Below the pieces are notes generated by a model that saw only the letters and a program-made list of their open reading frames with translations, searched no databases and was not told the origin of the DNA. From NCBI GenBank assembly GCA_937899835.1, contig CALCCE010000237.1, forward strand, positions 1 through 53,007: a stretch of 53,007 nt of DNA, written 5' to 3'. Origin of the DNA: an uncultured Flavobacteriales bacterium (lineage in GTDB: Bacteria; Bacteroidota; Bacteroidia; Flavobacteriales_G; Salibacteraceae). Shown here piece by piece: positions 34,068-52,747 of this stretch. The translations under genes were made by a program, and so were the position numbers. Numbering within the stretch: position 1 is the stretch's first letter; each line of letters starts with the position of its first letter.

Positions 34068-35456
34068 TTATTGATTCCAAAGGCCTTTGGCGGTTCCGCG
34101 AATGATCTTGAGGTATTGTACCGGAGCCAAAATGATGTCGGGGAATATGGTGAGGCAGGTGCCCAAAATAACCCCGGCAATGCCCATCCCTCCCGGACCG
34201 GCCAACAGCACCGAAAGTGGAATGTTGATGATGCTGGCAATGAGGGAAACGTAGAGGCTGATCTTCACTTTGCTGGCCCCATACATGAGGTAGTAAAAAA
34301 TGTCGCTCCAGGTGCGCATCAACACAAACAAGGCCATGAATACCGACAGTAGGAAGGGTACTTCCACTTCATCGCCTACCCACCAGTGGAAAAAGGTTTT
34401 CGCGAAAAACAACATCACAACGGTAACAACTACCAGCAGGAGCCAGAAGCGGATGAATTTTTGCGTCACCCTTTGTATCCATTCCAACTCGCCTTTGACG
34501 TAGGCTTCAGTATAGGCCGACCACAAGGGAAGGGTCACGGTATTGAAAAAGATCATCACTAGGCTGAAGTATTTCAACGACAAGCTGTAAGGCGTTACCT
34601 TATCGGGACCCAGCAGGCGGGTGATGATGAGGTTGTCGGTAGAAAAAACAATGTTGCCGGCAAACTGCATGACAAAAAACTGGAGGCCGAGCCCCATGAG
34701 TGGTTTGGCGTATTCCAGCTTCACGTAGCGGAAGGAGGGCAGGTACTTGCGGTAGCTGGTCCCAAAAAACCAGAAGGTGGCCAAGGCTTTCACCGAAAGG
34801 TTGGAAAGGCACACCGCGAGAGCCAAAAACCAAAGCGATCCCTCGGTGAATTGAGACAGCAGGTAAACGGCACCTAAAGAGATGAGGCTGCCAATGGTAT
34901 CGAGGCTTTTGCCCACGGCAGGTTTTTGGTCGGCGGTAAGGATCACGCTGATCAGTTTGAATACCATTTGCAGCGAGAAGTACGAGAAAACCAGCAGCAC
35001 CAAACGCAGAATATCGTTGGCCATTTCGGAAGGTACTTTGAGGATGTCGGCCCAGTCCAGCAGCGGCAGTACGCCGATGGCCACCAAAAAGAGTACGGCC
35101 ACAATGCCCGTAATCAAAGCATAAGCAGTACTGATGTAGGTACGCGCCAGGCGATGGTCGCCCACGGCAACCGCCTCGGCAAATTTGTTGCGCATGCCCT
35201 GGCCGAGGCCCAATTCTACAAATCCGAAAAGACCGATGGTAGAGTTGAGGGTAACCCAAATGCCGTAGCGGGTAGGGTTGAGGTAATCCAACATGAGGGG
35301 CACCAACAGAAAAGAGACCGTCATGCCCAAGCCTTTGAGCAACACCGAAGCCAGGATGCTTTTTTTGGCCCTGACGCTGCGTTGATGCCCTTGGCTAAAA
35401 AACGATTGGAGCGTATCCGGCAGTAGTTTTTGCAGTATGTTTCTGAGTTTGCTCAA
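34068..35456 (-). CDS. wzx: Polysaccharide flippase, Wzx/MOP superfamily
   Basis: A 462-residue integral membrane protein with about twelve hydrophobic segments spread over residues 32-445. It starts with a short basic cytoplasmic N-terminus and the pattern S-V-L-L-K-G-L-G-M-T-V-S-F-L-L-V-P-L-M-L-D-Y-L-N-P-T-R-Y-G-I-W. That is the characteristic first two segments of polysaccharide exporters of the MATE/MOP superfamily. It would move lipid-linked repeat units to the periplasmic face of the inner membrane, upstream of the Wzy-like polymerase. It is preceded by the Wzc-type kinase (17-base gap) and followed by the TIGR04325 gene, all minus strand, indicating one operon. Confidence 0.85.
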   Translation of the reverse strand: MSKLRNILQKLLPDTLQSFFSQGHQRSVRAKKSILASVLLKGLGMTVSFLLVPLMLDYLNPTRYGIWVTLNSTIGLFGFVELGLGQGMRNKFAEAVAVGDHRLARTYISTAYALITGIVAVLFLVAIGVLPLLDWADILKVPSEMANDILRLVLLVFSYFSLQMVFKLISVILTADQKPAVGKSLDTIGSLISLGAVYLLSQFTEGSLWFLALAVCLSNLSVKALATFWFFGTSYRKYLPSFRYVKLEYAKPLMGLGLQFFVMQFAGNIVFSTDNLIITRLLGPDKVTPYSLSLKYFSLVMIFFNTVTLPLWSAYTEAYVKGELEWIQRVTQKFIRFWLLLVVVTVVMLFFAKTFFHWWVGDEVEVPFLLSVFMALFVLMRTWSDIFYYLMYGASKVKISLYVSLIASIINIPLSVLLAGPGGMGIAGVILGTCLTIFPDIILAPVQYLKIIRGTAKGLWNQ

Positions 35457-35473: not shown

Positions 35474-37951
35474 TTACCTGGATGATTTTCGAGAGGGAAA
35501 CAACTTGCCAAAGAAGCCTTTGGGTTTCTTCTTGTCTTCCTCGTAATATCCGTAGCCGTATCCGTAACCATAGCCGTATCCGTATCCATAGCCATACCCA
35601 TAGCCGCCGTATCCGTATCCATAGCCGTATCCATAGCCATAACGGTAGCCGTAGCCGCTGCGTCCGATCCGCACCGCATTGAAGAGAATGGCAATGTTTT
35701 CAATTTTTCCGGCTTCGTACAGCTCGTTGATGTAGGCGAGGTGTTGTTTGCGGGTGACGTTTTGGCGCACCACATAAATGGCAGCATCTACATACTTGGT
35801 GAGCAGAAGAGCATCCGTTACCAGTCCGATAGGAGGTGTATCCACCAGCACCTGATCGAAATTTTCGCGCAGGTAGGCCATCAGGTCTTGCATCTTTTCC
35901 GTCATGATGAGCTCGGCAGGGTTGGGTGGGATGGGGCCCGAGGGAATGACAAACAAATTGTCGAGCAAGCCGGTCGGTTTGATGATCTCTTCCGGTGTTG
36001 CAGTACCCGCGAGGTAGTTGCTCACGCCAATTTCGTTGGAAACATCCAGGTCTTCCAGAATTTTCGGCTTGCGCATGTCCAGCCCTACGATCACCGTGCG
36101 TTTTCCCGAAAGGGCAATGATCGAAGCCAGGTTTCGGGTACAAAAGGTTTTACCCTCACCTCCGATGGAGGAAGTAATGAGCACCACTTGCTGGTTGCTG
36201 TCGGTACCGATGTACTTCAAGTTGGTGCGTACCGCCCGAAAAGCTTCGGAAATCAACGACTTGGGCTTTTCCAACACAATGATGGAATCGCTGTTGCGGT
36301 TGAAGCCCACCGCCCCTAAAATGGGTACCCGGGTTGCTTTTTCGAGAATGCCCCGGTGAATCACCCGGTCGTTGAGCAAGTCGCGGAGGTAAATGAAACC
36401 AATAGGTAGCACCAGCCCCAGCAGGAGCGCGATGGAGTAGTTACGGCTTTTGATGGGCTTGATGGGGTTGTAGTTCAACATCGCCCGGTCGATGATCCGG
36501 TTGTCGGATACCGTAGAAGCCAATAAAATAGACGTTTCGGCTTGCTTTTCAAGCAAGTAGGTGTACAGGCTCTCTTTGATCTTAAACTGCCGCTGTTGAC
36601 CGATCAACTCGCGCTCGGCTTTGGGAATGGATTTGATTTGCCCTTCGTATTTGGCCAACTTGCTTTTGGCTTCTTTCAAAGCGATCTCAAAACCGTTCTT
36701 CAGGGTAGAAAGGTTCTCCGCCAGGCGCATGCGCAATTGTTTGACTTGCCCTTGCAGAGCGATGGCGTTGGGGCTTTCTTTGGTGGCCCCGTAGCGCATC
36801 TGTTCGTATTCGGTTTCCAACTCCACCAGTTGGCTGATGAGGCCCATCAACACCGGTTCGTCAATGCCTACCGTACTTGGCACCACTTCACCGATCGACC
36901 GGTTGGACTGAATGTAACCGTCGAGGTAGTCGATAAAAGAGAGCTTGACGTTGATCTGCGAAATTTCCTCGTCGATTTTTTGTACTCCTTCCAGAAAAAG
37001 ATTGGCCTCCGAGCTGATGTCGGTGATGCCCCGTTCGGTTTTGAAAGTTTCAATGCCGCTCTCTACCTTTTTCAGCTCTTTGCTGATGGTGGCCAGCTGT
37101 GAGTTGATAAACTTAATGGAGTTGGTGGCCAGTTCGTTTTTTTGCTCAATGCCGTTTTGAATGTATACCTCCAACAACTTATTGATGAAATCTACCCCTT
37201 TCTCGGGCACTTCGTCGGTAAGGATCACTTCGATGATCGAGGATTTTTTCGCCTGATTCAAGACCGCCAGCCGGTTCCGGTAGCTTTCGATCATCTGCCC
37301 CGGATCGTTGAAACTAATCTTGTATTTCCGATCTTCGAAAGTAGGGCTGTCCAGTAGTGCCCGGTCGGCAGTTTTTCGCAACGACACCTGAAAAATTCCG
37401 GCATCGTTTTTCAGTGTATCTCCAAATTGGTGGACCGACTCGAACTTCTGCTCTTCCCCTAACTCGTAGTGCCACTTAAATTGCTTGGAGTTGATGATCT
37501 CCAAATAATACGAATAAATGTAAGCAGGGTATTCAAGGGTATCACAGGCAATGGTAAAAGGGGTCTTTTTGTAGCGTTCCGTGGTTTTAATATCGCCCAT
37601 CAAAAAATAGCTGACATCAAATTCCAGTTCTTCCAACGCCTTGGCGGTCAATTGCCGGCTTTGAAGAATCAGCTTTTCATTTTCGAGGTTGCGCGAACCG
37701 TTGCTAAACCCGTCCAATTTTTGAAACAAGTCTTCTGTGGCCAAGGCACTGTTGTCTACGTTGATCAGGATGGAGCTCTGCAATTGGTACACCGGGGTCG
37801 CATACCAGTTGTAGTAATAGGCAGCTACCAAACCCAGTGTGATCGAAAGGGCGAAAAAAGGCCAATAACGCAAATACTTGAAAAGGAAGTATTTCAAATT
37901 GAAATCATCGTCTTTTCGCAGTCGTTCTTCCGGTTCGTCGATTCCGCTCAT
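35474..37951 (-). CDS. wzc: Wzc-type polysaccharide co-polymerase and tyrosine autokinase with Tyr-Gly tail
   Basis: An 825-residue protein. Residues 20-60 hold the first membrane segment, and the Wzz chain-length domain with a long helical, coiled-coil-prone periplasmic part runs to about 500. A second membrane segment is near 510-530. The cytoplasmic BY-kinase domain (about 570-765) has Walker A S-S-I-G-G-E-G-K601-T, Walker A' V-G-L-D625-M-R-K-P and Walker B V-L-V-D704-T-P-P. The C-terminal tail at 766-803 is an almost pure Tyr-Gly repeat with 19 tyrosines, followed by a basic ending. E. coli Wzc has a shorter tyrosine cluster whose phosphorylation state controls assembly. It is the first gene of a wzc-wzx-TIGR04325 operon, with CAAAGTTA (TAACTTTG) at 37971-37978 as promoter box. 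Confidence 0.9.
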   Translation of the reverse strand: MSGIDEPEERLRKDDDFNLKYFLFKYLRYWPFFALSITLGLVAAYYYNWYATPVYQLQSSILINVDNSALATEDLFQKLDGFSNGSRNLENEKLILQSRQLTAKALEELEFDVSYFLMGDIKTTERYKKTPFTIACDTLEYPAYIYSYYLEIINSKQFKWHYELGEEQKFESVHQFGDTLKNDAGIFQVSLRKTADRALLDSPTFEDRKYKISFNDPGQMIESYRNRLAVLNQAKKSSIIEVILTDEVPEKGVDFINKLLEVYIQNGIEQKNELATNSIKFINSQLATISKELKKVESGIETFKTERGITDISSEANLFLEGVQKIDEEISQINVKLSFIDYLDGYIQSNRSIGEVVPSTVGIDEPVLMGLISQLVELETEYEQMRYGATKESPNAIALQGQVKQLRMRLAENLSTLKNGFEIALKEAKSKLAKYEGQIKSIPKAERELIGQQRQFKIKESLYTYLLEKQAETSILLASTVSDNRIIDRAMLNYNPIKPIKSRNYSIALLLGLVLPIGFIYLRDLLNDRVIHRGILEKATRVPILGAVGFNRNSDSIIVLEKPKSLISEAFRAVRTNLKYIGTDSNQQVVLITSSIGGEGKTFCTRNLASIIALSGKRTVIVGLDMRKPKILEDLDVSNEIGVSNYLAGTATPEEIIKPTGLLDNLFVIPSGPIPPNPAELIMTEKMQDLMAYLRENFDQVLVDTPPIGLVTDALLLTKYVDAAIYVVRQNVTRKQHLAYINELYEAGKIENIAILFNAVRIGRSGYGYRYGYGYGYGYGYGGYGYGYGYGYGYGYGYGYGYYEEDKKKPKGFFGKLFPSRKSSR
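35543..35656 (-). repeat. Tandem Tyr-Gly codon repeat in the wzc tail
   Basis: This 114-base segment of the minus strand encodes residues 766-803: three Gly/Arg-Tyr units, five Gly-Tyr, one Gly-Gly-Tyr, nine Gly-Tyr and a final Tyr. Glycine is written with GGC, GGA, GGT and GGG and tyrosine with TAC and TAT in irregular order. The DNA repeat is therefore imperfect while the protein repeat is nearly perfect. Confidence 0.95.
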
Positions 37952-38001: not shown

Positions 38002-38772
38002 TTAAATGGCGCGGCATACCAAAGTAGCATACCAGGTGCTGTCGTTTAGCGGTGCTCCGGTCATCCACTGCTCATGGTGCAATAGCTCCAGATTTGCTTG
38101 TTGGGTCAATAATTTTAGCTCTGGCAGAAAAAGGTAGCGCATGCGGTGCAATTCCTGCAATTGCTGTGAAGTCTGTTGCTTTTTATCGGTAATGTCAATG
38201 TCAAAATGAACTTCCACGGTGTTTTCGTCGAACACCATTTCGGCCCGGGTGCTGCGGTGCACCTTCAGCAAATCGTTTTCCCAGGTCTTTTCCCGGTTCC
38301 CCGGCCGATCGGTGAGTACTGCCGGTCCATACCAGCAATCGAAAACCGCAATGCCGCCAGGTACTAAATGTTGGCGAAAGGTGGTGAAGGACTGCTCCAG
38401 GTCGCTTTGAGAAGTTTGATAACTCACCACGTGAAACAGCGACATGATCCCGTCAAATTGTTGCTCGTTTCGCCAGGTGCGCATGTCTCCCTGGTGAAAA
38501 GACATTTTCTTGTGCTCCTCGAGTTCCAGGGCGGCATGTTTTTGATGGGCCAGTTCCAGCATGTTAGCGCTAACGTCTACTCCGGTAGTTTGATATCCGT
38601 TGCGCACCATTTCGAGGTCGTGCGCTCCGGTGCCACAGCCGAGGCTCAGCAGGCGCTTGCCGGGTATGCCAAAGCGCTGAAACAAGCCCTCCACATACGC
38701 GGCTTCCTCCCGGTAGTTCTTGTCGGCATACAGCAGGTCATAATAACTGGCTAAATCTCCAAATACGCTCAT
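38002..38772 (-). CDS. Class I SAM-dependent methyltransferase
   Basis: A 256-residue protein. It begins S-V-F-G-D-L-A-S-Y-Y-D-L-L-Y-A-D-K-N-Y, typical of small-molecule methyltransferases. Motif I L-L-S-L-G-C-G-T-G-A-H is near residues 41-51, the acidic turn is T-G-V-D-V-S-A-N-M-L, then come D-G-I-M-S-L-F-H-V-V-S-Y and L-V-P-G-G-I-A-V-F-D. Relatives include sugar N- or O-methyltransferases, which would fit the location between the kinase and phosphatase genes of the polysaccharide locus, but the substrate is unknown. A CAAAAATA box (minus-strand TATTTTTG, 38789-38796) lies 17 bases upstream. The gene is divergent from the CpsB-type phosphatase. Confidence 0.8.
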   Translation of the reverse strand: MSVFGDLASYYDLLYADKNYREEAAYVEGLFQRFGIPGKRLLSLGCGTGAHDLEMVRNGYQTTGVDVSANMLELAHQKHAALELEEHKKMSFHQGDMRTWRNEQQFDGIMSLFHVVSYQTSQSDLEQSFTTFRQHLVPGGIAVFDCWYGPAVLTDRPGNREKTWENDLLKVHRSTRAEMVFDENTVEVHFDIDITDKKQQTSQQLQELHRMRYLFLPELKLLTQQANLELLHHEQWMTGAPLNDSTWYATLVCRAI

Positions 38773-38917: not shown

Positions 38918-39670
38918 ATGGGATTTTTGAATCGGCTCTTTCAGCGCAAACCTCAGCTTCCACCGGTGGATTGGTCGGTGCTACAGGTAGATGTGCATTC
39001 CCATTTCATCCCCGGCATCGATGATGGAGCGGCTACCATAGACGATTCGCTGGCCCTCATCGAACGCTTCGTTGGCATGGGCTACAAAAAGGTGATTACG
39101 ACTCCTCACGTAATGAGTGATTACTACAAGAATACTCCGGAGATCATTTTGGGAGGTTTGGAAAAAGTACGTGCCGGGGTGAAAGAAAAAGGGTGGGACA
39201 TTGCAGTAGATGCGGCCGCTGAATACTACCTCGACCCGGAGTTTGAAGAATCTATCCCCGAGAAAAAACTCCTCACCTTCGGAAACAACTACGTGTTGTT
39301 TGAATTGCCGTTCATCAGTGAGCCGCCAATGCTCAACGATGTTATCTTCAAGCTGCAAACCAACGGTTATAAACCTATTCTGGCTCATCCAGAGCGCTAC
39401 GGTTACTGGTATAAAAACTATGCGAAGTACCAGGAAATGCTCGATCGAGGGGTGTTGCTTCAGCTCAACATCAATTCACTCACGGGGCATTACAGCCCTG
39501 AAACCAAAAAAATTGCCGAGCAATTGATCAAGGATGGTTTGATTCGATTTCTCGGCTCCGATTGTCACCACATAGGACACACCGAGTTGATGCAGGTAGC
39601 GGCTACCCAGGGGGCATTGCACGAACTGATAGCCTCCGGGCGCCTCTTAAATACCCAATTGTTGGATTAG
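38918..39670 (+). CDS. cpsB: CpsB/YwqE-type PHP tyrosine-protein phosphatase
   Basis: A 250-residue metal-dependent phosphatase of the PHP superfamily. Visible ligands are H27 and H29 (D-V-H-S-H-F-I-P-G-I-D-D-G), H64 (T-T-P-H), E102, H157 (A-H-P-E-R-Y) and D215/H217 (G-S-D-C-H-H), which together form the trinuclear site known for CpsB and YwqE. The family dephosphorylates the tyrosine tail of the cognate BY-kinase, cycling capsule assembly. Its likely substrate here is the Tyr-Gly tail of the Wzc-like protein about 1 kb away on the other strand. It has its own promoter box. Its stop overlaps the stop of the convergent lipoprotein gene by three bases. Confidence 0.9.
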   Translation: MGFLNRLFQRKPQLPPVDWSVLQVDVHSHFIPGIDDGAATIDDSLALIERFVGMGYKKVITTPHVMSDYYKNTPEIILGGLEKVRAGVKEKGWDIAVDAAAEYYLDPEFEESIPEKKLLTFGNNYVLFELPFISEPPMLNDVIFKLQTNGYKPILAHPERYGYWYKNYAKYQEMLDRGVLLQLNINSLTGHYSPETKKIAEQLIKDGLIRFLGSDCHHIGHTELMQVAATQGALHELIASGRLLNTQLLD

Positions 39671-49441: not shown

Positions 49442-52400
49442 TCAGTTGACCGAAAGCTTCTCGACCACTTGTCGATCGTTGAAACTGAGTTTCACAAAGT
49501 AAACTCCGGTAGACACTTCGCCCAGGTCAATGTCGTGGAGCAACTCACCTGAGATGCTGCCCAGGTTTTGAGCATAAACCACACGTCCGCTAACATCGGT
49601 TACTTCGATGAGCGCACTGGTGCTTTGACTGGCGCTTAATGATAGGGAGAATTCACCACCGTTCGGGTTGGGGAACAGGTTGTAGGTGAGGCCTCCTTCA
49701 AGGTCTTCTACACTCGTAATGGTAGTGAACACTGAATCGCTGTAAGTTACCGTATCACATTCGTTGGAAACCGTCAAGGTCACAAAGTAGCCACCTGAGG
49801 TAGCATAAATGTGAATCGGGTTCTCCAAATTAGAAGTTTGACCATCTCCAAAATCCCAGGTGTAGTTGAGGCCGTTGGCACTGCTGTTTGAGAAGTTTAC
49901 GGCGGTAAACGAGGAAGTGGAGGTGAAATTTGCGGTTGGTAGCAAGATTTCGGTCAGCGTAACCTGATCAGTGCTTACACAGTTGAATTGATCCGTTACC
50001 GTTACACCATATGTTCCGGTGCTGTTCACAGTAATGGTTTGGTTGATCTCACCACCGGGAGTCCATGCATACGTACTGCCTGACAATCCAGCATCCAGGG
50101 TTATGTTGCTGCCTTGACAAAAAGTAGTATCACTGGGAAGGTCTACCGCCTGTGATACCGTTACAACGGTAGAATCAGAGCTTTGGCAACCGTTAGAATC
50201 TACTACATCCACTACATAGAGTCCGGCAGTAGAAACAGTGATCGATTGTGTCGTCAATCCACCGGTCCAGTTGTAGGTACCGTTGGTAATATCGGCCATC
50301 AGTGAACCTGAAGTGCCGAAACAAAGGTTGGTATCTGTGGGAAGGTCAACAGGGATGTTGGTCATCACCATTACGGTGTCGTCAACGGTGCCACAGTTGT
50401 TGGTTACGCTAACGCTTACCTGTCCTGTTGTGTTTACCCAAATAAAATCTGCGGTGTCAATAGTGGTAGTGGTCCAAATGTTTTGGGCACCCAATGCACC
50501 GCTCAATTGAATACTATCGCCTTGGCACAATACAGTGGGATCGTTTCCAATCGAATAGTTGCCCAACGAGGTGAACTCATCAGCTCCAATGTCAGGAGCA
50601 CCCGCATTACGTGCTTGCCCTTCAAAGTCTTCAGTGATCAGTGTGTTTACTTTACCCGTTCCGTCCAAGGTGTCATTACAAACGTGGAGGTCATTGGTTT
50701 GGTAGTTGTAGAACAATGGATCAACGCTCTGTCCGTCCAGGTCGAAGCCTGAAGCAGACTGCCAGTCGGCCAGACTGGCTTGGTTTCCGCTAAAGAAGCC
50801 AAGATTATTCCCATTGGTATACAAGTTGTTATTGTCCATCTCCGTCACCGCAAAGGAGTTATTCAGGTAGGCCGCGTAACCACTTCCGAAGTGCGCAAAA
50901 ATATTGTTGTACACTTTGTTGGCACCGCCACTTACAATGTAGAGTGACCGGCTAAAAGTTCCGGTTCCTTCCAGTGCTACACTATTGTTGTAAATGTTTT
51001 GGTAACCGGTGTTGGAAACATAAATGCCATAGTGACTGCTGCTGCTCGTAGGTGTTCCCACATGCACTGTGTTGTTGGCAATTACTCCTTGCTGAGTAGC
51101 GGTTCCGTCACAGTTCACAAAGTAAAGGCCATGGCGAGGCACCTGATTGAGGGCTTCAATACGGTTGCCGGTTACTTCAAACTCGTTGTCACAGTAGTAG
51201 AAGTAGAAACCATAAGAGGTACCAGTGTAGGTAGACAATGAACTGAATACATTGTTTCTGAATTTCATGTCATCGTGGTACCACGCCCGAATGCCGTAAA
51301 AATATTGGCGGGTAAAGAGGTTGCCGTCGATCACGGTTCCTTCTTCCAGGGTAGTGGTGTTTTGGCCATACCAGTACATACCATAACTACCTCCACGAAT
51401 TTCATTGTTTAGAAAAGTGTTGAAGTTGTCTAAGCCGGTATTACTCCAAATAACCGTTTTATTGGTAGAAGTAGTCGTTGTGGAGTTGTCACCTTGGAAA
51501 ATGTTTCCTTCGAAGGTGTTGTGGTCTGCTCCTCCGGTTACATTCATTACCCGGGAAAAAGTGGTCCCTGTATTCTCAATGGTTAGATCCTTAAAAGTAA
51601 TCCAATCCGCACCGTTCATGTTGAGGGTGTAGTTGGTCACAGAAGAGCTAGCCGCGAAAGTAATGGTAGCTAAGGTTGGGTTACCGTTCGCAGATTGGAA
51701 GGTAACGGTGTTTATCGAGCTGGCTCCTGGAATTTCAGGAATGTCCACTTGCTCATTGTAGGTGCCGTCGGCTACGTTAAAAACGATTGGTCCACAAATG
51801 CCCAGGCTATCCATGGTGAGAATAGCATCGGCAAAGGTTTGAAAGTTGGTGCCGCCAGTAGGGGAGGCGCCATCGATGGTATAAGTACCAGAGATGGAAT
51901 TCATTGGTAACAAAACAGTAGCGGTGTCATTGATGGCGGCACTGTCGGTAACTCCGTTAGGATCAAAGGTCCAAACTTTGATTTCGTCACCTACATTGAA
52001 GGTAAGCGTGTCAAGGCAGACGGAATCAGCAATATCAAATTGACCCAAAGTACCGGTCCAGGCGGTCGTACCTTGGTTAACACCATTTACTGACCAGCTA
52101 ATGCCCACTGAATCAAGGGTGTCCGATCCCCAGTTGCGAATCGATACTTTCAGTACCGAATCATAAACACATGCTGGGAAACTGGGTGAAACGATGCTGT
52201 TGACACCGGCATCATCAGCGAAAGGAGAAAGAGCTATAAACTCCACGGTCATGGTTTGCGTTGCAGCGTTGCAACCGCCCGTACCAATGCTTCCCCAGTT
52301 TGCGTTTCCGATACAAGGGCGAACAGTGAGGTTGCCACCACAAGAGCAATCCGATCCTGTATTGGCTGCGTTGAGCTCAATGTCTTGACCTGTTACGGCA

Positions 52401-52747
52401 CAACCAGTGATACAAGCATTGCCTACGGTCCAGATGATACCACCGCAAGTAAAGGATTGTTGGGTCCCTGAGTTGAGAGCAGCAGCAATCTGAGCAACAA
52501 TAGCTTGATCAGAACAAGTGGCTCCAACCGGATCGAGGGAACCGTAAATTTTACATTCGAGGTAAACGTTGTTGCTGGTTAGGGAAGCACGGAAGGTACC
52601 CCAGTTGTCGTATTGTGGGTCGCCAGGGCAATAAGAAGTTCCCTGGGTAAAATTCTCACTATAGGAGAAAACCTGTGCCTGGGTAGAAAGGCAGGTTAAA
52701 AGCACACCTATGAGTAGAAAAGAATTCCAAAGTAGATGTTTTTTCAT
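49442..52747 (-). CDS. Large secreted adhesin-like protein: beta-helix, PKD and type IX sorting domains
   Basis: An 1101-residue secreted protein. Its parts are a signal peptide (M-K-K-H-L-L-W...T-Q-A-Q, 1-25), a cysteine-rich N-terminal domain (about 30-170, a dozen or so cysteines), a CARDB-like Ig domain (about 180-280), a right-handed parallel beta-helix region (about 290-720, with repeated N-x-F-x-N and Y-N-N-x motifs), two or three Ig-like repeats with Q-x-x-T-V-x-x-x-G-x-Y (about 740-935), a PKD domain (936-1005, W-D-F-G-D-G) and a type IX sorting module (1020-1101, L-F-P-N-P). It is probably an outer-surface adhesin or carbohydrate-binding protein. There are no clear polysaccharide lyase catalytic residues that I can place. 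Confidence 0.85.
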   Translation of the reverse strand: MKKHLLWNSFLLIGVLLTCLSTQAQVFSYSENFTQGTSYCPGDPQYDNWGTFRASLTSNNVYLECKIYGSLDPVGATCSDQAIVAQIAAALNSGTQQSFTCGGIIWTVGNACITGCAVTGQDIELNAANTGSDCSCGGNLTVRPCIGNANWGSIGTGGCNAATQTMTVEFIALSPFADDAGVNSIVSPSFPACVYDSVLKVSIRNWGSDTLDSVGISWSVNGVNQGTTAWTGTLGQFDIADSVCLDTLTFNVGDEIKVWTFDPNGVTDSAAINDTATVLLPMNSISGTYTIDGASPTGGTNFQTFADAILTMDSLGICGPIVFNVADGTYNEQVDIPEIPGASSINTVTFQSANGNPTLATITFAASSSVTNYTLNMNGADWITFKDLTIENTGTTFSRVMNVTGGADHNTFEGNIFQGDNSTTTTSTNKTVIWSNTGLDNFNTFLNNEIRGGSYGMYWYGQNTTTLEEGTVIDGNLFTRQYFYGIRAWYHDDMKFRNNVFSSLSTYTGTSYGFYFYYCDNEFEVTGNRIEALNQVPRHGLYFVNCDGTATQQGVIANNTVHVGTPTSSSSHYGIYVSNTGYQNIYNNSVALEGTGTFSRSLYIVSGGANKVYNNIFAHFGSGYAAYLNNSFAVTEMDNNNLYTNGNNLGFFSGNQASLADWQSASGFDLDGQSVDPLFYNYQTNDLHVCNDTLDGTGKVNTLITEDFEGQARNAGAPDIGADEFTSLGNYSIGNDPTVLCQGDSIQLSGALGAQNIWTTTTIDTADFIWVNTTGQVSVSVTNNCGTVDDTVMVMTNIPVDLPTDTNLCFGTSGSLMADITNGTYNWTGGLTTQSITVSTAGLYVVDVVDSNGCQSSDSTVVTVSQAVDLPSDTTFCQGSNITLDAGLSGSTYAWTPGGEINQTITVNSTGTYGVTVTDQFNCVSTDQVTLTEILLPTANFTSTSSFTAVNFSNSSANGLNYTWDFGDGQTSNLENPIHIYATSGGYFVTLTVSNECDTVTYSDSVFTTITSVEDLEGGLTYNLFPNPNGGEFSLSLSASQSTSALIEVTDVSGRVVYAQNLGSISGELLHDIDLGEVSTGVYFVKLSFNDRQVVEKLSVN

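Follow-up and report, generated by a model that had tools for sequence, protein, structure and literature searches.

The locus studied here raises a simple question, namely, why a bacterial tyrosine kinase (BY-kinase) of the Wzc type should end in a tract made almost entirely of tyrosine and glycine. The kinase is encoded on a 53,007-nucleotide stretch of DNA from an uncultured Flavobacteriales bacterium of the Salibacteraceae (GenBank assembly GCA_937899835.1, contig CALCCE010000237.1, positions 1 to 53,007), which was analyzed as a whole and is referred to here as the window. The answer that we consider probable is that the tract is the autophosphorylation tail of such kinases, the tyrosine cluster (YC), enlarged into a long, nearly unbroken Tyr-x-Tyr rack, that is, an extended form of the YxY ratchet of Escherichia coli Wzc. 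This reading rests on homology and pattern. By rack, we mean consecutive Tyr at a spacing of two, and by teeth, the number of Tyr in the longest unbroken chain.

The anatomy of the tract is exactly as the original prediction had read it, with Gly and Tyr alternating over residues 766 to 803, 19 Tyr, one Arg, and one Gly-Gly. The stretch between Tyr767 and Tyr803 comprises 37 residues, of which 19 are Tyr, 17 are Gly, and 1 is Arg. The longest unbroken chain at a spacing of two has 10 teeth, and there are 16 Tyr-x-Tyr pairs in total, a number that was matched by none of 20,000 composition-preserving shuffles of the tract. The distal block ends in YGYYEED; hence, the C terminus, which had been described as basic, is so at its very end, with the acidic EED coming first.

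The description of the protein as a Wzc-like BY-kinase was borne out by family models and fold. It scored 156.2 bits against the NCBIfam polysaccharide tyrosine autokinase model eps_fam (TIGR01007; cutoff, 108.05), and the Pfam domains GNVR and AAA_31 were both above their cutoffs, with Wzz under its cutoff and the Wzc equivalog model below threshold (257 of 1,068 bits). The closest solved relatives by sequence were the E. coli Wzc chains. In a single-chain AlphaFold model (alignment of 34 sequences; mean predicted local distance difference test [pLDDT], 80.1; predicted template modeling score, 0.55), residues 17 to 763 aligned with full-length Wzc (7nhr) from helix alpha1 to the end of the kinase (Z, 33.4; root mean square deviation, 8.9; 489 aligned residues), and the kinase part matched CapA-CapB (2ved) with a Z value of 34.0. 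A periplasmic domain between two predicted membrane helices, together with the fused kinase, gives the protein the architecture of a PCP-2a polysaccharide co-polymerase (PCP). The pLDDT values were <50 across residues 764 to 812, which include the tract, and the tail of the model is read as disordered in the monomer.

Tails of this kind are widespread in the class Bacteroidia. Among 206 distinct kinases of the class with a near-complete kinase match, racks of at least five teeth were found in 156 and racks of at least eight in 97, with a median of 7 and a maximum of 16 (L221, a Bacteroidales metagenome-assembled genome). Racks of at least five teeth occurred, among named examples, in Flavobacteriaceae, Chitinophaga, Mucilaginibacter, Algoriphagus, Hymenobacter, and Bacteroidales. 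The set derives from 211 rows after removal of two duplicates, two partial kinases, and one tail containing N; within the 211, 2 exceed the 19 Tyr of the window kinase and 32 exceed its 10-tooth chain. The searches covered 60 relatives, 247 genomes of the phylum, and 80 named loci, and a portion of the matches had their tails read: 30 loci and 60 regions came from the search for relatives, another 30 loci and 60 regions from the phylum-search matches listed, and the named loci were the best 80 of 481 when ranked for similarity to the window. As similarity to the window partly guided the sampling for the relatives and the named loci, the share of kinases with racks may be raised. The named loci (L188 to L267) were assigned to the class collectively, one locus titled Azovibrio restrictus (L207) was found with the Bacteroidota kinases and kept in the class set, and kinases whose frame ran off the contig (e.g., L016 and L259) were left out. 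The two duplicate genomes are still included in the register, codon, motif, PHP, tree, and independent-pair analyses described below.

This spread refutes the idea that the repeat is unique to this assembly, a possibility that had been raised against the original prediction. An assembly or annotation artifact would be conceivable given that low-complexity DNA is error prone and that the tail of one relative (L074) contains unread bases, but the tract is 114 bp long, the frame stays open through to an end motif common to the relatives, and kinases with the same kind of tail come from a plasmid record as well as from two genome collections that overlap in part, so that we regard this explanation as extremely unlikely.

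The position of the rack is also regular. The distance from an invariant Asn to the rack has a median of nine residues among class kinases, compared with 9 in the window kinase and 9 to 10 in E. coli K30 Wzc, and an acidic residue stands close after the last Tyr in 136 of the 156 class kinases with racks. Over 163 class tails, a Tyr-Tyr distance of two was observed 1,091 times, versus 594 ± 15 in shuffles. Five Bacteroidia kinases (L151, L152, L154, L164, and L077) carry a third type of tail, with 11 to 20 Tyr and no Tyr-Gly register (longest chain, 2). In the other classes of the phylum, racks of at least five teeth were found in only 7 of 50 kinases, and many tails there (L098 to L127) follow a YYx grammar, reading like YYKYYRYYNYYY. 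Outside the Bacteroidota, 2 of 12 plasmid kinases had racks of at least five, both Tyr-Gly, one with seven teeth in Sphingomonas parapaucimobilis (L274) and the other with six in Leuconostoc carnosum (L272); these two are possibly independent in origin. The 12 kinases lie within 14 regions picked from 40 listed records of the 761 that matched and do not amount to a survey. In a FastTree phylogeny of 259 kinase domains, rack presence changed 33 times, versus at least 72 in 50 label shuffles; the rack is thus inherited for the most part but has been lost or gained repeatedly. In the genome from which the window comes, a protein search recovered five kinases of this type, of which three have long racks, one has four Tyr in its tail, and one lacks both the catalytic Asp and a rack. 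A search of the same genome for other Tyr-Gly tracts returned the window tail, one further kinase tail (E value, 8e-4), and a poor match in a 2,146-aa frame (E value, 2.6); this search was not exhaustive, as it missed the rack at C28.

How such a tail might work is suggested by E. coli Wzc, in which the tail is reported to enter the active site of the neighboring protomer, with phosphorylation ordered from Y717/Y718 toward the N terminus and the Tyr at position i-2 occupying a pocket, described as a YxY ratchet; a Tyr placed into the broken YxY position (N711Y) gave an ordered tail and sustained capsule in the 3YE mutant; at 4pY, i.e., with four phosphotyrosines, the octamer was unstable (PMC11986026, PMC8285477). 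The window tail has the consecutive Tyr at a spacing of two that a ratchet of this kind uses. By homology, it would be phosphorylated by the neighboring protomer in steps of two residues, since a Tyr two residues upstream would always be ready for entry, presumably beginning at the distal Tyr-Tyr and proceeding N terminally, with the Gly spacers letting the strand slide. If the position rule of K30 holds, 17 Tyr of the window tail would be usable, versus 5 in K30; the threshold applied, which counts Tyr from position 12 past the invariant Asn onward, was set to reproduce the five K30 sites, and a count higher than 17 was found in 2 of the 206 class kinases. More boldly, the number of teeth might set how many phosphorylations are passed before the octamer loosens, and the length of the tail might tune the time available to the polymerase and the length of the polysaccharide, with dephosphorylation as a reset. 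That the Bacteroidia tail is an adjustable counter, a rack of up to 16 teeth that changes by Gly-Tyr units and sets the number of steps and the polymer made per octamer before reset, is a tentative proposal, which we hold to be doubtful.

Another possibility is that phosphorylation reaches no farther than the last four or five Tyr by the time the octamer disassembles and that the remainder is a neutral or weakly selected expansion by Gly-Tyr slippage. That E. coli Wzc loses its octameric state at 4pY (PMC11986026) would agree with it, and so would the variation in rack length among close relatives and the codon repetition, which exceeded expectation (p < 0.05) in 18 of 115 tails by a string test (ca. 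6 expected) and in 13 of 115 by a lag test. In the window tract, the codons from the first to the last Tyr are mixed, as had been claimed (GGC 8, GGA 7, GGG 1, GGT 1, TAC 11, and TAT 8); the longest repeated codon string is of seven codons (p = 0.10), and the lag test gave a p value of 0.75 (400 synonymous-codon shuffles in each case), with TRF reporting periods of 33 nucleotides (93%) and 51 nucleotides (84%). The claim that the repeat does not stem from recent slippage thus stands for the window gene but not as a general rule, while that of a pattern maintained at the level of the protein is supported. Close relatives differ by whole Gly-Tyr units gained or lost with the register intact; for instance, two kinases whose domains are 98% identical (L072 and L043) have racks of 12 and 9 teeth. 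Given the mixed codons in the window and these whole-unit differences, rack length seems to be altered by expansion and contraction of the DNA, while the pattern itself is apparently maintained by selection acting on the protein. Throughout whole tracts of mixed codons, register and Tyr identity persist, Phe hardly occurs, and 97 of 206 kinases have racks of at least eight teeth, where a neutral surplus would be expected to decay; on balance, a mostly unused tail appears unlikely to us.

Selection was also assessed at the level of single positions. Among cluster representatives, spacers were other than Gly in 63 of 676 cases and teeth other than Tyr in 22 of 596 (p = 7e-5), and when tails were chosen symmetrically in Gly and Tyr, replacements affected 32 of 599 spacers and 16 of 579 teeth (p = 0.03). 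The Gly spacers are themselves strongly conserved. An initial register count (64/552 versus 10/428) was discarded because the tails had been picked by their Tyr chains and were biased toward Tyr; the recounts given above, free of this choice, show a smaller effect. Teeth with Tyr on both flanks were Tyr in 1,087 cases, Phe in 4, and another residue in 126, compared with 660 Tyr, 165 Phe, and 229 others in five Tyr-majority columns of the kinase domain, a contrast that is indicative, since the others include tract edges and the rows are related. The near absence of Phe as a replacement suggests that the hydroxyl is needed, as it would be for a phosphate acceptor.

These data bear on a further alternative, in which the tract would serve as a sticker-and-spacer or amyloid-like element and gather kinase complexes into clusters that phosphorylation dissolves. 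Tyr-Gly composition and the low-confidence tail of the model are compatible with it, and designed short X-Tyr peptides (X = Asn, Gly, or Ser) have been reported to self-assemble (PMC11093263). However, composition alone does not demand a strict two-residue register, the near exclusion of Phe is not what a plain aromatic-sticker tract needs (this is not decisive), and the rack starts at a fairly constant distance from the kinase core, as expected for a substrate reaching the active site. We consider self-association highly unlikely. Of the graded or phase-separating phosphorylation module originally envisaged, the multisite module survives as the best reading that the sequence suggests, but phase separation or self-association found no direct support.

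The catalytic motifs were also examined. The BY-kinase signature is described as four motifs, Walker A, Walker A' (DxDxR), Walker B ([ILVFM](3)DxxP), and a Tyr cluster of 10 to 20 residues (PMC5260027). The window kinase has the first, the third, and a C-terminal Tyr cluster, yet with 37 residues and 19 Tyr, this cluster exceeds the length described. At the first Asp of Walker A' (D562 in K30), the 211 class rows have Gly in 95, Asp in 80, and Glu in 26; the second Asp is kept in 205. The median rack was 7 in rows with Gly at the first position and 8 in those with Asp, and from this similarity, kinase activity is likely in the former, the window kinase included. The protein is a BY-kinase of the Wzc type, a name that rests on its other motifs, the family model, and the fold. 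As a side effect, a strict DxDxR signature would miss the class kinases with Gly or Glu, despite their racks of similar length. In fact, our first motif test (at least six Tyr in 70 of 75 "active" and 116 of 134 "inactive" kinases; p = 0.17) had to be replaced because its Walker A' pattern demanded Asp-x-Asp and called most kinases inactive.

When all catalytic residues were considered, a rack was present in 156 of 200 kinases with intact residues and in none of 6 with broken ones (Fisher test, p = 1.6e-4). Five of the six (L034, L086, L089, L090, and L091) share the replacement of Asp564 by Asn, have lost the Walker B Pro645, and lack the Tyr rack; one copy is found in the genome of the window. 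This clade likely consists of membrane-bound pseudokinase PCPs. The sixth (L083) is a 330-residue frame of a gene with an internal stop.

A number of observations weigh against interpreting the tract as an enlarged ratchet. First, the window kinase has Gly at the first Walker A' Asp, and 44 of the 200 intact kinases have no rack of five. Second, the five broken kinases form one clade (support, 99), only two independent pairs are available on the tree, which gives no significance, and the association of rack loss with loss of catalysis is therefore near to a single event. Third, the higher conservation of Tyr over Gly is modest under symmetric tail choice. Fourth, a Tyr-Tyr distance of two is no more frequent than expected in 50 tails of the other classes (189 versus 190 in shuffles), in which a distance of three is enriched (z, 6.0); thus, not all BY-kinases need a spacing of two. 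Fifth, if the octamer is lost at 4pY as in E. coli, most of the teeth of the window kinase might never be used. Finally, of the residues of the Tyr pocket (E675, P536, S679, and P645), the window kinase keeps only P645, which is conserved in 206 of 211 class rows. At the position of E675, it has His (MAFFT) or Gln (phmmer alignment), and the class rows have Phe in 69 and Met in 44; at that of P536, it has Gly, with Ser in 136 and Pro in 36 of the class rows; S679 also differs. As E675 is not conserved, the exclusion of phosphotyrosine reported for it is not transferable as it stands. CapB seemingly lacks a Glu at exactly this place (in an ungapped reading of the printed sequence), yet a pocket is described for it, so that the pocket may consist of other residues.

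The coordinates of the kinase, its parts, and the neighboring genes are collected in Table 1.

Table 1. Features of the kinase locus (positions in the window)
Feature	Position	Strand	Basis or remark
Wzc-like BY-kinase/PCP-2 polysaccharide co-polymerase, 825 aa	35474..37951	-	Translation, family models, fold
First predicted membrane helix, residues 30-50	37802..37864	-	Helix in model; membrane nature predicted from letters and Wzc match
Second predicted membrane helix, residues 501-526	36374..36451	-	Helix in model; membrane nature predicted from letters and Wzc match
Walker A SSIGGEGKT, Lys601	36146..36172	-	Fits GK[S/T]
Walker A' GLDMR, Asp625 kept, first Asp replaced by Gly623	36071..36085	-	Departs from DxDxR
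Walker B VLVDTPP, Asp704	35831..35851	-	Fits [ILVFM](3)DxxP
Proximal linker, invariant Asn758 to rack, 9 residues to first Tyr	35654..35680	-	Asn758 aligns with K30 Asn696
Tyr-Gly tract, residues 766-803, 19 Tyr	35543..35656	-	Translation
Proximal rack block, Tyr767-Tyr781, 8 Tyr, one spacer Arg770	35609..35653	-	Translation
Gly782-Gly783, sole break of register	35603..35608	-	Translation
Distal rack block, Tyr784-Tyr803, 11 Tyr, Tyr-Tyr at its end	35543..35602	-	Translation
Post-rack end, residues 804-825, acidic EED then basic	35477..35542	-	Translation
MatE-family (Wzx-like) flippase gene	34068..35456	-	Listed frame starts 17 bp past kinase stop
Methyltransferase gene	38002..38772	-	Between kinase and PHP genes, on kinase strand
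CpsB/CapC-type PHP phosphatase gene	38918..39670	+	PF19567, E value 7.5e-43; divergent from kinase

The kinase and flippase genes likely belong to one operon, and a family 2 glycosyltransferase gene is found farther along the locus. Elsewhere in the window (positions 49442 to 52747, minus strand), a 1,101-aa protein with a PKD domain and a Por secretion-system C-terminal sorting domain is a probable type IX secretion substrate.

The PHP phosphatase had been put forward as the partner of the tail, and a graded module that evolved together with a neighboring phosphatase reading the phosphorylation level is the last alternative to be weighed. The gene indeed starts 967 bp from the kinase start, on the opposite strand and with the methyltransferase gene in between; in Bacteroides xylanisolvens, a CpsB gene adjoins a kinase with a rack of eight, and Porphyromonas gingivalis Php1 can reportedly dephosphorylate the kinase Ptk1 (PMC8863745). 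By analogy, the window phosphatase may act on the window kinase. The link is weak, however, since a PHP homologue was found in the stored flanks of only 12 of 154 Bacteroidia kinase rows, a count that covers rows with at least 8 kb of DNA (the window locus, with <8 kb, falls outside), flanks of ca. 4 to 6 kb on each side, and a single phmmer query, with unlinked or Wzb-type phosphatases outside the search. Among these 154 rows, racks were not longer near PHP (p = 0.14), and racks of at least five were found in 7 of the 12 with a homologue versus 106 of the 142 without one. The PHP gene does not explain the tract, and coevolution of the two as a module seems quite improbable.

The Wzc YxY tail is a known kind of element, and what appears to be new is its enlargement into a Tyr-Gly rack, widespread in Bacteroidia. 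In the open-access literature, at the level of titles and the openings of abstracts, we found no description of Tyr-Gly racks in Bacteroidota kinases. Such kinases may have received little notice because the first Asp of DxDxR fits only 80 of 211 rows and because the window tail is longer than the published 10 to 20 residues. The ratchet model of E. coli was derived from a single enzyme, whose five-site tail is interrupted, by way of its phosphorylated intermediates (PMC11986026). The Bacteroidia offer a natural series of what is apparently the same device, in which chains run to as many as 16 teeth and kinases with 98% identical domains have 12 and 9 teeth, and this makes the control of polymer length by phosphorylation level directly testable.

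Among known systems, E. coli K30 Wzc (7NHR; PMC8285477, PMC11986026) is like the window kinase in its full-length fold, its Walker A and B motifs, its pair of membrane helices, and its C-terminal Tyr tail. The similarity extends to the linker of 9 to 10 residues between Asn and rack, the Tyr-x-Tyr steps, and the distal Tyr-Tyr, the YGYYEED of the window resembling Y715-x-Y717-Y718 of K30. Unlike the window tail, with 19 Tyr and one Gly-Gly, that of K30 has 7 Tyr (705, 706, 708, 713, 715, 717, and 718) with a gap at 709 to 712, and unlike K30, the window kinase lacks the pocket residues E675, P536, and S679 and has Gly in place of the first Walker A' Asp. The Staphylococcus aureus CapA-CapB chimera (2VED and 3BFV) has a similar kinase fold, and insertion of the tail is reported to stabilize its octameric ring, although kinase and membrane part are described as naturally separate proteins (PMC11986026) and the Tyr tail is short. 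Within the same phylum, P. gingivalis Ptk1 is a BY-kinase with a Tyr cluster, in which six Tyr in a 16-residue region are reported to be autophosphorylated; it is required for exopolysaccharide, and php1 lies immediately downstream (PMC4082711, PMC8863745). Going by that description, its cluster is shorter than that of the window kinase. The Bacteroidia pseudokinase clade is comparable to BY pseudokinases such as Myxococcus xanthus EcpK (PMC12004946) in having lost catalytic motifs jointly with the Tyr tail. EcpK is described as having none of the motifs and a separate PCP, while the frames of the Bacteroidia clade, of 768 to 810 aa, also match the PCP part and keep GK[ST].

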